A stretch of DNA of 42,286 nucleotides, from IMG/VR virus record IMGVR_UViG_3300025909_000003, positions 1 through 42,286 of that record; one strand, given 5' to 3'. The first letter of the stretch is position 1, and each line of letters begins with the position of its first letter. The stretch comes from a virus. A program made the position numbers and the translations under genes. The notes under the pieces are model-generated. The model saw nothing but the letters and a program-made list of their open reading frames with translations. It searched no databases and was not told where the DNA came from. Positions 29,135 to 33,443 of the stretch are shown here, in pieces.

Positions 29135-29289
29135 TGTCTGAAATAGTCGCAGACCTCCGCGACGATCTACTCCTCACATTCGGTAAGCTCGGCATCAAGG
29201 GCGATCAGGCTCAAGAGCTAGCCGACGAAACGCTCGCCACCATCAAGAGCTGGTGCGCCAAAGAACCTGTGAACGATAACGAGGCATGA
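29134..29289 (+). CDS. Hypothetical helical protein (51 aa)
   Basis: A 51-residue acidic protein, mostly one or two helices (MSEIVADLRDDLLLTFGKLG), starting at a TGATG overlap. It lies directly before the small terminase. No family recognised. Confidence 0.6.
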   Translation: MSEIVADLRDDLLLTFGKLGIKGDQAQELADETLATIKSWCAKEPVNDNEA

Positions 29290-29291
29290 CC

Positions 29292-29696
29292 ATGGCAAAT
29301 AATAATGCCGGGAAATTGCCAGCCCACCTTGATCCCGAAAAGCACTTCAAACCTGGGCAGGTAGCGAACCCGCTAGGCAGACCCAAGGGCGCTCGGTCCA
29401 AGTTGGGTGAGGCATTCCTAGAGGACATGCTGTCCGACTGGGAAGAGCATGGCAAAGTCGTGATTGAGGCTGTCCGCGCTGACAAGCCCGATCAGTATCT
29501 CAAGGTGGTCGCCTCGATCCTACCCAAGGAATTGAACGTCAAGGTGAATGAACTTGATGACCTCACCGACGATCAGCTCGCCAGACAGTACGCGGCAATC
29601 GCAGCGAGCCTTGTTGCAGCAGGCATTGACCTTAGCGCAGGAAATGCAGCGCAGGGCGGCCCGGAACAAGCTGTCAGCGTACCGACCATACAATAA
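29292..29696 (+). CDS. Terminase small subunit-like (DNA recognition)
   Basis: A 134-residue protein beginning with a basic, Pro/Gly-rich region (FKPGQVANPLGRPKGARSKL), the DUF5681-type N-terminus of phage terminase-associated proteins, followed by helices. It should select phage DNA for packaging with the large subunit, whose gene overlaps its 3' end by about 150 bases. ATG 29292 is taken over ATG 29286 because GAGG is then 7 bases away. Confidence 0.75.
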   Translation: MANNNAGKLPAHLDPEKHFKPGQVANPLGRPKGARSKLGEAFLEDMLSDWEEHGKVVIEAVRADKPDQYLKVVASILPKELNVKVNELDDLTDDQLARQYAAIAASLVAAGIDLSAGNAAQGGPEQAVSVPTIQ

Positions 29697-30282
29697 GCAG
29701 CGAGAGTTCCACGATGCTGGCAGGGAACACCGCGAGCGACTATTCATGGCCGGCAACCAATTGGGAAAGACCGTTGCTGGCTCAATGGAATGGGCCATGC
29801 ACCTTACGGGTAAATACCCTGAGTGGTGGCAAGGGCGCCGGTTCGAGACACCTGGACGATTTTGGGCAGCCGGTGAATCTGGTGTTTCAACCCGAGATAC
29901 GGTTCAAAAGCTTCTCGTAGGCCCTCCTGAGAAGGAGGAGGAGTGGGGAACGGGCGCCATTCCGTATAGGGATATCGTGGACACGCAGCGCGGTAGATCG
30001 GCTCCTGACGCGCTGGATAGCGTGGTCGTCAAGCATGTAGCTGGTGGTTCGTCCACGTTGCTGTTCAAGAGCTACGAGCAGGGCCGGGGCAAGTGGCAGG
30101 GCGATACGCTCAACGGGGTTTGGTTCGATGAAGAGCCGCCTAGCGATATCTATTCGGAAGGGCTGACCCGCACGAACGCGACAGGCGGGATCGTGATGCT
30201 CACCTTTACCCCGCTCAAGGGCATGTCGGAGGTGGTGCGCATGTTCCTCCAGACCAATGATTTGGAAGGGATGAAGGCGTGA
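29548..30282 (+). CDS. Terminase large subunit, N-terminal ATPase part
   Basis: A 244-residue ORF with the packaging ATPase motifs: an adenine-binding-type YRPYNKQREFH region, Walker A GNQLGKT (residues 69-75), Walker B VWFDEE (191-196) and a coupling motif in FTPLKG. It then stops at 30280-30282 after FLQTNDLEGMKA, where intact homologues continue into RHVT-MTIDDAEHY. That continuation is found in a separate ORF from 30434. The 5' start is uncertain (ATG 29548, ATG 29557 or ATG 29644), as the frame overlaps the small subunit gene. Confidence 0.85.
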   Translation: MNLMTSPTISSPDSTRQSQRALLQQALTLAQEMQRRAARNKLSAYRPYNKQREFHDAGREHRERLFMAGNQLGKTVAGSMEWAMHLTGKYPEWWQGRRFETPGRFWAAGESGVSTRDTVQKLLVGPPEKEEEWGTGAIPYRDIVDTQRGRSAPDALDSVVVKHVAGGSSTLLFKSYEQGRGKWQGDTLNGVWFDEEPPSDIYSEGLTRTNATGGIVMLTFTPLKGMSEVVRMFLQTNDLEGMKA

Positions 30283-30437
30283 GCAACACCATCATTCACC
30301 CGAAAGAGGCGGCTCGAGTTATATTGCGCGAACTGCGTCCCGTATTCGCGGTAGCACAAGCTCAGGCTGATCGGATTGGGAAAACCGTAACGATCGGCAT
30401 CGGGATGGGCGACGTAAGGTTTGAGCCTTCAAAGTGA
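30279..30437 (+). CDS. 52-aa ORF inserted between the two terminase halves
   Basis: A 52-codon ORF starting at GTG overlapping the stop of the ATPase half (GTGA) and stopping in a GTGA overlap with the nuclease half. The peptide (MSNTIIHPKEAARVILRELR, then a Gly/Val-rich RIGKTVTIGIGMGDVRF) has helix-then-strand character and no recognised family. Each junction shifts the frame by -1, so all three products are separate unless ribosomes slip. It could be a coupled gene or remnant inserted into the terminase. Confidence 0.6.
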   Translation: MSNTIIHPKEAARVILRELRPVFAVAQAQADRIGKTVTIGIGMGDVRFEPSK

Positions 30438-31195
30438 CGCGCCACGTCACTCGGATGACGATTGACGACGCAGAGCATTACACCCCGGAAGAGCGCGCGG
30501 CTATCGTCGCAGCCTATCCGGAGCATGAGAGAGAGGCGCGGGCCAAGGGCATACCGCAGCTAGGTTCGGGCCGCGTGTTCCCGATTGGTGAAGACGCGAT
30601 CAAGATCCCGGCATTCGTCATCCCCGACCATTGGCCGCAGATCGGCGGCATAGACTTCGGTTGGGATCACCCCACGGCAGCGGCAAGGCTGGCCTGGGAC
30701 AAGGACGCAGACACGCTCTACGTCACGCACGTTTACGCGGCGCGCGAGCAAACGCCGCTGCATCATGCGGGCGCATTGAAACCTTGGGGAGACTGGCTCC
30801 CGTGGGCATGGCCGCACGATGGCTTGCAGCACGACAAGGGCTCGGGCGAAGCGCTCAAGGATCAATACAAGAAGCACGGGCTCAACATGCTGCCCGAGAA
30901 GGCCACACACCCTGACGGGGGCAACGGCGTCGAGGCAGGCATTCAAGACATGCTGGAGCGCATGGCGACAGGGCGTTTCAAGGTGTTCGACCACCTGGAG
31001 CCGTGGTTTGAGGAATTTCGCCAGTATCACCGCGTGGATGGGCTGATCGTCAAGGAGTTTGACGATCGCATATCGGCCACGCGCTACGCCGTGATGATGC
31101 GGCGCTTCGCCAAGCTGGCAACGAAGAAGACACCCAAGCTCGGCCTGCAAGGTCCGCGCAACCCCATGATGATGCCCGGAGGATGGATGCGATGA
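30434..31195 (+). CDS. Terminase large subunit, C-terminal nuclease part
   Basis: A 253-residue ORF starting at GTG 30434. It opens with the conserved MTIDDAEHYTPEERAAIVAA and EREARAKGIPQLGSGRVFP linker, then the RNase H-like nuclease: first Asp in GGIDFGWDHP (Asp74), later acidic residues in the DGLQHDKGSG and KEFDDRISATRYAVM regions. These two halves together make a normal-length large terminase. The split is at the linker between ATPase and nuclease, so a two-chain enzyme could still assemble. Confidence 0.85.
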   Translation: MTRHVTRMTIDDAEHYTPEERAAIVAAYPEHEREARAKGIPQLGSGRVFPIGEDAIKIPAFVIPDHWPQIGGIDFGWDHPTAAARLAWDKDADTLYVTHVYAAREQTPLHHAGALKPWGDWLPWAWPHDGLQHDKGSGEALKDQYKKHGLNMLPEKATHPDGGNGVEAGIQDMLERMATGRFKVFDHLEPWFEEFRQYHRVDGLIVKEFDDRISATRYAVMMRRFAKLATKKTPKLGLQGPRNPMMMPGGWMR

Positions 31196-31377
31196 GGGCA
31201 ACTCACGTTGACTACATGCATCCCGGCCACCTTCGCGTGGAGACTGGCGAGACATATCCGGCATGGAGCATTGGTCGCGGCTTTCACCGCAAGGACGCTC
31301 TGTGCGTTGGCCCTAGCTCATCCATGTACGGCAAGCTCAAGCGCGCCGGACTGCCGAAGTGGGAGGGTGATGCTTAA
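31192..31377 (+). CDS. Hypothetical protein (61 aa) between terminase and portal
   Basis: A 61-residue protein coupled by ATGA to the terminase nuclease part, with GGAGG upstream. It is basic and aromatic (THVDYMHPGHLRVETGETYP). Small genes here are common in P22-like phages. It ends in a TAATG overlap with the portal gene. Function unknown. Confidence 0.65.
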   Translation: MRATHVDYMHPGHLRVETGETYPAWSIGRGFHRKDALCVGPSSSMYGKLKRAGLPKWEGDA

Positions 31378-33443
31378 TGGCTGACACCTCCAAGCCCGAC
31401 ATCGTTCAGGAAGGCAAAGACCGCTTCAAGCGCTGTCAGGATTGGGAAGCGGAGGCACGCAAGCGCTTTGTTGCCGATCGCAAGTTCGCCAACGCGGACA
31501 GCGACAATATGTGGCAGTGGGATGATCGGATTGCGGGCGACCGCATCCGCGACAACCGCCCCATGCTGACGATCAACAAGACGCAGCAGCATAATATCCA
31601 GATCATCAACGACGCCAAGAAGAACAAGCCGGAAATCCGCATTCGACCTGTTGGTGACGGTGCGACCTATGACTCCGCGCAGGTGTTCCAGAGCGTCGCG
31701 CGGCATATCGAGTACATCTCGAACGCGCAGACGGTCTATGACCGCGCCACGACGTTCCAGGTCGAGGGCGGCATTGGGTACTGGCGCGTCGTCACGGACT
31801 ATGCGGACAGCGAGAGCCTGGATCAGGAGATATTTCTCCGCGCGATCAAGGATCCGATGGCGGTCTATCTCGATCCGGACATCAACGAGGCTGACGGTTC
31901 CGACGCGCGCTTCGGGTTCATCTTCGATGACGTGCCGACCGACAAGTTCAAGGCGAAATACCCGCGCTACAAAGACAGTCTGCCTACCCAAACGCTGAAC
32001 AACGGCGACGATTGGGTCAACGAAGAGCATGTTCGTGTCGCGGAATATTATCGCCGGCTTGAAAAGCGTGACCAGCTTGTGTCCTGGGTCGATGACCAGG
32101 GGCAGCGCCAGCAGTCCAAGGCGTCCAAACTCGGCAAGGAAGTCGTGGCTCAGCTTCAGGCTGATGAAAGCTCGGATTTCCGAGCGCGCGACATCACCGA
32201 AGACGTGATCGAATGGTATCTGATCGCTGGCGACAAGATTGTCGAAAAGTCGATCTGGCCGGGCAAATACATTCCCATCGTCCGCGTGATCGGTGTTGAA
32301 ACCATCATCGACGGCAAGCTAGACCGCAAGGGCCACACGCGGGCCATGAAAGATCCGCAGCGCCAGTACAACTATTGGACCAGCTCGGCTGCTGAGCAGG
32401 TCGCGTTGCAGGGCAAGAGCCCCTACGTCGCGCCGCTGCGTGCTATCGAGGGGCTGGAGAATTATTGGGAGAACGCGAACACCGAGAATTTCTCTGTGCT
32501 CCCGTACAATGACGTGGACGACACGTCGAACCCAATTGCGCCCCCGCAACGCTCTGTCCCTGCCGTCATGGCGCCCGCCTACGTGCAGGGCATGCAGATC
32601 ACCCGTCAGGAATTGATGGAGGTATCGGGGCAGTATGAAGCTGAGATGGGTGCGCCTTCGAATGAGCGCTCTGGTGTCGCTATCGAGGCCCGCCAGCGTC
32701 AAGGCGACACGGCAACATATCACTTCATCGATAATCTGGCCGTCGCGATCCGCTTCACCGGCAAGATCCTGATCGACCTTATCCCCAAGATATACGACAC
32801 GCCCCGCATCGTCCGCTTGCTGGCATCCGATGGCTCGATCGACATGGACAGTGAACCCGTCCAGATCGACCCGCAAGCCAAGCAGGCCTATGTCGAGCAG
32901 ATCAACCATGAACAGCAGGTTGTCGCCCGCATCTTCAACCCGAACGTGGGCAAGTATGACGTACAGGCGGACATCGGCCCAGACTTCGCCACCCGCCGTC
33001 AGGAGACGTTCAACGCCCTGATGCAATTGGTGCAGGAGGATAGCGCCCTTCTCCCGCTGGTGGGCGACATTCTATTCCGTGCGGCCGACTTCGCTATGGC
33101 GGATGAGGTCGCAGAGCGGCTTCGCAACATGGTCCCCGAACAGGCTCTTGGTGGTCCGTCGCCGCAGACGCAGGAAATGCAGGCTCAGATGGGCCAGCTG
33201 CAGAATGCGCTTCAAAACGCGGTCGAGGCGCTTGCTGACGCCAAGAAGCGCGAGAGTGTCGATCAATACAAGGCCGAAACCGATCGCATGAAGATGGGTG
33301 TGGACGTGGACCCGCTGGTCCTTGTCCCGGTCATTCGTCAGGCGGTCATGGAGGCCATCGGACAGCAATTGCCAAGCGGCATCCCCGTGGTCGGGCAGGC
33401 CACAATTCCACCCGAACCACCGGCTGAAAAAGAAGCCGCTTAG
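31377..33443 (+). CDS. Portal protein, P22 gp1-like
   Basis: A 688-residue protein, close to the 725 residues of P22 gp1. It carries portal-type segments: NRPMLTINKTQQHNIQIIND, KNKPEIRIRP, a central RVIGVETIIDG-type strand, RQYNYWTSSAAEQVAL, and QYEAEMGAPSNERSGVAIEARQ near the crown. The C-terminus is Gln-rich coiled coil. It forms the dodecameric ring through which DNA is packaged and ejected. Confidence 0.92.
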   Translation: MADTSKPDIVQEGKDRFKRCQDWEAEARKRFVADRKFANADSDNMWQWDDRIAGDRIRDNRPMLTINKTQQHNIQIINDAKKNKPEIRIRPVGDGATYDSAQVFQSVARHIEYISNAQTVYDRATTFQVEGGIGYWRVVTDYADSESLDQEIFLRAIKDPMAVYLDPDINEADGSDARFGFIFDDVPTDKFKAKYPRYKDSLPTQTLNNGDDWVNEEHVRVAEYYRRLEKRDQLVSWVDDQGQRQQSKASKLGKEVVAQLQADESSDFRARDITEDVIEWYLIAGDKIVEKSIWPGKYIPIVRVIGVETIIDGKLDRKGHTRAMKDPQRQYNYWTSSAAEQVALQGKSPYVAPLRAIEGLENYWENANTENFSVLPYNDVDDTSNPIAPPQRSVPAVMAPAYVQGMQITRQELMEVSGQYEAEMGAPSNERSGVAIEARQRQGDTATYHFIDNLAVAIRFTGKILIDLIPKIYDTPRIVRLLASDGSIDMDSEPVQIDPQAKQAYVEQINHEQQVVARIFNPNVGKYDVQADIGPDFATRRQETFNALMQLVQEDSALLPLVGDILFRAADFAMADEVAERLRNMVPEQALGGPSPQTQEMQAQMGQLQNALQNAVEALADAKKRESVDQYKAETDRMKMGVDVDPLVLVPVIRQAVMEAIGQQLPSGIPVVGQATIPPEPPAEKEAA

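Follow-up and report, generated by a model that had tools for sequence, protein, structure and literature searches.

A probable two-polypeptide large terminase in P22-like phages, with small genes between its chains

The large terminase (TerL) serves as the marker gene for tailed phages, and the usual assumption is that it forms a single chain. In the window, by which we mean the whole 42,286-nucleotide stretch of IMG/VR virus record IMGVR_UViG_3300025909_000003, TerL is spread over three serial ORFs. This arrangement raises the question whether the phage builds its packaging motor from two proteins, restores one chain by frameshifting or splicing, or carries a damaged gene. The comparisons described here point to a group of bacterial viruses in which the packaging motor, normally one piece, would be made from two separately started proteins.

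The divided terminase of the window

ORF calling reproduced exactly, in coordinates and in frames, what an earlier note on this DNA had described: a TerL split in two, a 52-codon ORF between the parts, GTGA overlaps on both sides and a reading-frame step of -1 at each of them (Table 1). Chain 1 contains the Walker A (GNQLGKT), Walker B (VWFDEE) and TFTPL motifs; its core runs to the helix GMSEVVRMFL and is followed by a short tail that ends in FLQTNDLEGMKA and the TGA stop. Residues 1-43 of chain 2 correspond to the last beta-strand of the ATPase core and the lid, and the rest is an RNase H-like nuclease similar to that of P22 gp2, with a profile match to the P22 nuclease 4DKW (E 1.1e-76). The ASCE ATPase core with Walker A, Walker B and coupling motif is therefore present on chain 1 and the nuclease domain on chain 2. 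Judged by sequence, the domains that a P22-like TerL holds on a single polypeptide appear to be divided by a stop and a separate start, in the window as well as in 98 distinct junctions. Searches of the whole window record found no second TerL, and ten records each held a single copy, with the nuclease part in one of them (G006) missed by the Pfam search.

Table 1. Coordinates of TerL and neighbouring features in the window.
Feature	Coordinates	Strand	Remarks
Upstream ORF, DUF5681-like / PHROG 8771	29286..29696	+	Below Pfam cut-off; terminase small-subunit position, putative
TerL chain 1	29548..30282	+	244 aa; Terminase_6N profile positions 1-153, E 3.7e-23
GTGA overlap 1	30279..30282	+	Chain 1 TGA stop / 52-codon ORF GTG start
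52-codon ORF, putative passenger cassette	30279..30437	+	GTG start, 52 aa
GTGA overlap 2	30434..30437	+	52-codon ORF TGA stop / chain 2 GTG start
TerL chain 2	30434..31195	+	GTG start, 253 aa; Terminase_6N 162-210, then Terminase_6C 1-154
Portal protein, packaging neighbour downstream	31377..33443	+	phrog_156, E 9.9e-112

Almost nothing of the Terminase_6N profile is missing between the two chains, in line with the earlier claim that no conserved sequence has been lost. The labels "ATPase half" and "nuclease half" given to the two parts need correction: Terminase_6N is itself divided, 4DKW starts near residue 42 of chain 2, and a structural model likewise places the cut within the ATPase domain. 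This AlphaFold2 model was made for a fused homologue (L075; mean pLDDT 84.6, pTM 0.67, with moderate confidence around the cut), and Foldseek matched it to the TerL of P22, D6E, Sf6 and T4. The cut maps to loop 223-229, between helix 216-222, which comes after the strand of the TFTPL motif, and strand 230-235. As modelled, the loop is exposed at the surface and belongs to the ATPase fold itself, not to the ATPase/nuclease linker. Helices 245-265, on the chain 2 side, coincide with the position described for the lid subdomain of D6E TerL (PMC5727402); chain 2 is thus predicted to supply the final strand of the core sheet as well as lid and nuclease. Because the cut loop lies within the ATPase fold, the chains would have to associate, and their assembly would need the ATPase sheet to be rebuilt between them.

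Downstream of TerL are genes for portal, scaffold and major head protein, and the surroundings also include P22-like tail-connector genes, an integrase, an S24-type repressor and an ERF-type recombination protein, a gene content that marks the window phage as temperate and P22-like. The ORF upstream shares 149 nt with the beginning of the ATPase ORF, and a similar overlapping ORF lies upstream of terL in Rhizobium phage RHph_N2.

Occurrence and expression of the split

Comparison with intact P22-like terminases, as the earlier note had proposed, found an uninterrupted TerL in the cultured relatives RHph_N2 (about 60% identical), Pseudomonas phage PaP3 and P22 (gp2), which form one family with the window TerL over both parts. 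RHph_N2 and PaP3 have one chain with a six-residue turn where the split phages have a stop and a start, so the gap between the matched parts is 18 nt in these two phages and 190 nt in the window.

We scanned IMG/VR with each TerL half and with a degenerate pattern requiring RTGA at the nuclease start, and one further scan covered genome contigs. A stop between the TerL halves was found in 154 loci, some overlapping each other and a few of them odd cases. After removal of duplicates, 55 distinct junctions are bare 4-nt overlaps with no insert (ATGA in 45, GTGA in 10, the stop always TGA), and another 43 bear inserts of 84-2416 nt, with ATGA or GTGA at the nuclease start kept in 42 of them. The cut point is identical in the related junctions and the window. 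Matches in genome contigs came mostly from Mesorhizobium (18/20), plus Sphingomonas and a Rhizobiales; a bare-overlap element is present in Sphingomonas sp. Root720 (L237). Mesorhizobium elements, possibly inactive as phages, account for about one in four of the split junctions sampled.

In the tree built from 161 joined halves, only 4 changes of the fused/split label are required (mean of 52 when shuffled). The best tree of a thinned set of 97 rows takes 3, and a single split clade was not rejected on that set (p-AU 0.118). These values suggest one origin of the split, or a small number of them, within P22/Rhizobium-phage-like TerL, plus some re-fusions or extra origins: to account for the fused members inside the split clade, either two or three re-fusions or multiple origins would be needed. 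We also considered the residues SR in the linker of one fused member (L069) as a re-fusion scar derived from ATGAGCCG; the DNA at this point, CTCTCCCGT, gives no direct sign of it.

The division recurs in the PHROG library, where chain 1 matches PHROG 31467 (ATPase part; 261 aa) and chain 2 matches PHROG 5653 / 30463 (nuclease part). All three are sized like one TerL half or smaller and are unlinked as parts of one enzyme, and perhaps they were built from split members. PHROG 31467 is labelled as of unknown function and is probably under-labelled. Surveys that expect a full-length TerL will probably miss or mis-annotate the split clade.

Both TerL halves are under purifying selection, with dN/dS of 0.01-0.18 in split phages and 0.03-0.20 in the Mesorhizobium elements, in which 215-2416 nt of mostly non-coding sequence lie between the halves. 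Conserved motifs are intact in most split members. Shine-Dalgarno cores precede the nuclease start in 21 of the 55 bare junctions (background 10%), and slippery heptamers show no excess in these junctions (1/55, background 1.5%). Rfam introns had no match in the window or in ten related loci, and the insert of the window contains neither intein or splicing domains nor a Pfam match for the 52-residue ORF. With no intron, no slippery site and nothing spliceable in a 4-nt overlap, coupled re-initiation yielding two chains is the best-supported reading, and we give a functional two-polypeptide large terminase a probability of roughly 0.87. A genuine two-chain enzyme was among the options of the earlier note, and the comparisons favour it; the split is old and clade-wide. 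Ribosomes would end the ATPase chain at the TGA and re-initiate at the overlapping ATG or GTG. In the ancestral form this restart would yield the nuclease chain directly; in the window phage, the 155-bp cassette with its own GTGA would add one small ORF to the relay. The two chains would then associate into a packaging-active motor.

The same note had also allowed for two -1 frameshifts, and a programmed shift at each GTGA would indeed give one chain with the 52 residues internal, as both steps are -1 and the frames join in order. We consider this very improbable: besides the background level of slippery heptamers, the tail of chain 1 varies freely in length and sequence, and the gaps of relatives hold hundreds of bases with stops, in some cases several stops or 1.8-2.4 kb. 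Splicing could also restore a single TerL chain, were the insert an intein or self-splicing intron like those of Staphylococcus, ICP1 and Jug phages, and all published interrupted terL genes that we found are of this spliced type (PMC5618024, PMC10448857, PMC12363816, PMC3322345). We give this explanation almost no weight, given a window insert of 151 nt with neither an Rfam match nor splicing domains, inserts that are mostly unrelated to each other, and 55 relatives with nothing to splice at the identical break. The non-coding look of the Mesorhizobium inserts would fit a sequencing error or a pseudogene, in which case the phage would be defective and its TerL decaying. However, the break is identical in the 55 and 43 distinct junctions, which come from isolates and metagenomes alike, the motifs are intact in most members, and the strong purifying selection on both halves disfavours a pseudogene. 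The consensus error that the earlier note had kept open is excluded by the same break in independent relatives, and error and decay taken together seem to us highly unlikely.

Small genes between the two chains

The nearest relatives (L007 and L008), with identities of 86% and 92-93% for the two halves, have the split but lack the 52-codon ORF. Their junction reads ...LEGMKA-TGA, with the nuclease chain opening ATGAG(C/T)CG; the window has the same ...LEGMKA-TGA, an extra 155 bp and then GTGACGCGCCACGTC. In the nearest relative, ATGA stands where the window has its first GTGA, and chain 1 is joined directly to the nuclease chain. Compared at its edges, the 155-bp insert sits precisely at the overlap site of L007 and L008, with GTGA flanking it on both sides. 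The next relative (L009) carries a different 60-codon ORF in this slot, and in L010 the slot is empty. We read the 52-codon ORF as a later, lineage-specific insertion, an event separate from the split, which bears out the recent insertion that the earlier note had listed as one option.

Among the six frames over this stretch, that of the 52-codon ORF scores highest for codons (z 2.6, p 0.0025 against shuffles), so the ORF is probably translated; an open frame as long as this arises in 18% of shuffles and is unremarkable alone. No relatives of the 52-residue ORF were found in phages, IMG/VR, Pfam, PHROGs, PDB or all fetched loci, and the proposed profile search matched no family in Pfam or PHROGs. 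A weak match (L182/L167) proved to be the first part of a long ORF, probably that of the major head protein, which lies downstream of the portal region. The peptide is most likely a passenger rather than a motor part. A "third coupled peptide", as the earlier note put it, is possible only if the term means a passenger translated together with the chains; nothing points to a terminase subunit. If it instead belonged to the two-chain motor as a third subunit, with a stabilising or regulatory role in the window lineage, its coded-looking frame and the small ORFs similarly placed in other lineages would make sense, and its translation between both chains would lead one to expect similar amounts of all three. 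We nevertheless think this improbable, as the ORF is missing in close relatives, shares no sequence with the cassettes of other lineages and lacks homologues in the databases searched.

Since the split, the junction has acquired a wide range of cassettes, HNH endonucleases included. Inserts differ by lineage, and the tree takes at least 13 insert gains or losses; two lineages have HNH endonucleases and elsewhere the inserts are orphan small ORFs. Small unrelated genes thus appear to have entered the gap between the TerL chains repeatedly. The two endonuclease inserts (L164 and L037) encode HNH_3 proteins, 153 and 152 residues long, that start at an ATG sharing the bases ATGA with the stop of the ATPase ORF. 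By tblastx the two inserts are relatives of one another (66% across 133 codons). The site is empty in L193, the sister of L164, and this arrangement at one TerL junction resembles a homing site. Because endonucleases occupy the one site in two lineages, it is plausible that the split originated by HNH insertion; an endonuclease could also have moved into a split that was already there.

In eight small cassettes (52-111 codons) the frame is uninterrupted between the end of the ATPase ORF and the nuclease start, which for each individually happens by chance in 3-18% of shuffles; six inserts that do not belong to the main Mesorhizobium set lack such a continuous frame. Mesorhizobium inserts mostly look non-coding and repeat-like. 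The split TerL occurs in many Mesorhizobium species (L223-L242, e.g. L226, L227, L228), where it is possibly a conserved, domesticated element; one copy (L231) has an apparent second ATPase-like ORF inside the insert, which suggests a local TerL duplication or rearrangement. A further insert of 1.8 kb (L016) holds several ORFs, one of which has an Ntox44 toxin domain (L016:3767-4489; L171, IMGVR 640427144) with several small membrane-like ORFs nearby, and is perhaps a toxin/immunity passenger.

An essential gene has in this way come to admit cassettes, some of which are mobile, at its break point. Whether the clade is selected for a stable two-chain motor, for instance one that sets the nuclease:ATPase ratio, with the overlap as a standing cargo slot, is a more speculative matter on which we lean towards no. 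If true, passenger, homing nuclease and toxin-like genes would be expressed with the packaging genes.

Comparison with interrupted terL genes and two-chain enzymes

Interrupted terL genes have been known as spliced ones, and two-chain phage enzymes as a ribonucleotide reductase (RNR), a topoisomerase and a DNA polymerase. Group I introns occur in terL of Staphylococcus phage fRuSau02 (PMC5618024), ICP1 (PMC10448857) and Jug phages (PMC12363816), and terL of Campylobacter IBB_35 has an intron plus an intein (PMC3322345); rejoining by RNA or protein splicing has been reported or predicted in these cases. As there, terL in the split clade is an insertion target annotated as two ORFs. Unlike them, the split clade has no splicing element, and the bare overlaps leave nothing spliceable. 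An exact-phrase search for "split terminase" returned no paper, subscription papers being mostly outside the search, and as far as we could find a two-chain TerL with small genes invading the gap has no earlier description.

A closer likeness is found in essential phage enzymes made of two polypeptides with homing endonuclease genes at the break: NrdA of the Aeromonas phage Aeh1 RNR, split by the HNH homing endonuclease gene mobE, the T4 gene 39/60 topoisomerase with mobA, and the phage 25 DNA polymerase gp43A/gp43B (PMC2988022). Although a member of the TerL family by sequence, the split TerL appears to work like these Aeh1-type enzymes. Uninterrupted homologues are known and conserved motifs are kept in both pieces. 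A homing-type endonuclease at the break is restricted to the HNH_3 ORFs of L164 and L037, with none in the window or the bare-overlap members. In the Aeh1 NrdA type the two polypeptides must reassemble, and those of TerL would have to do likewise. A natural two-chain TerL would offer a separable motor, whose core could be mixed, mutated and dosed independently of lid and nuclease, and with it a direct test of how ATP hydrolysis passes to the lid. Unlike in the Aeh1, T4 and phage 25 enzymes, the protein here is the packaging motor, a broad clade retains the 4-nt stop/start overlap at its break, often without an endonuclease, and its slot hosts many unrelated cassettes.
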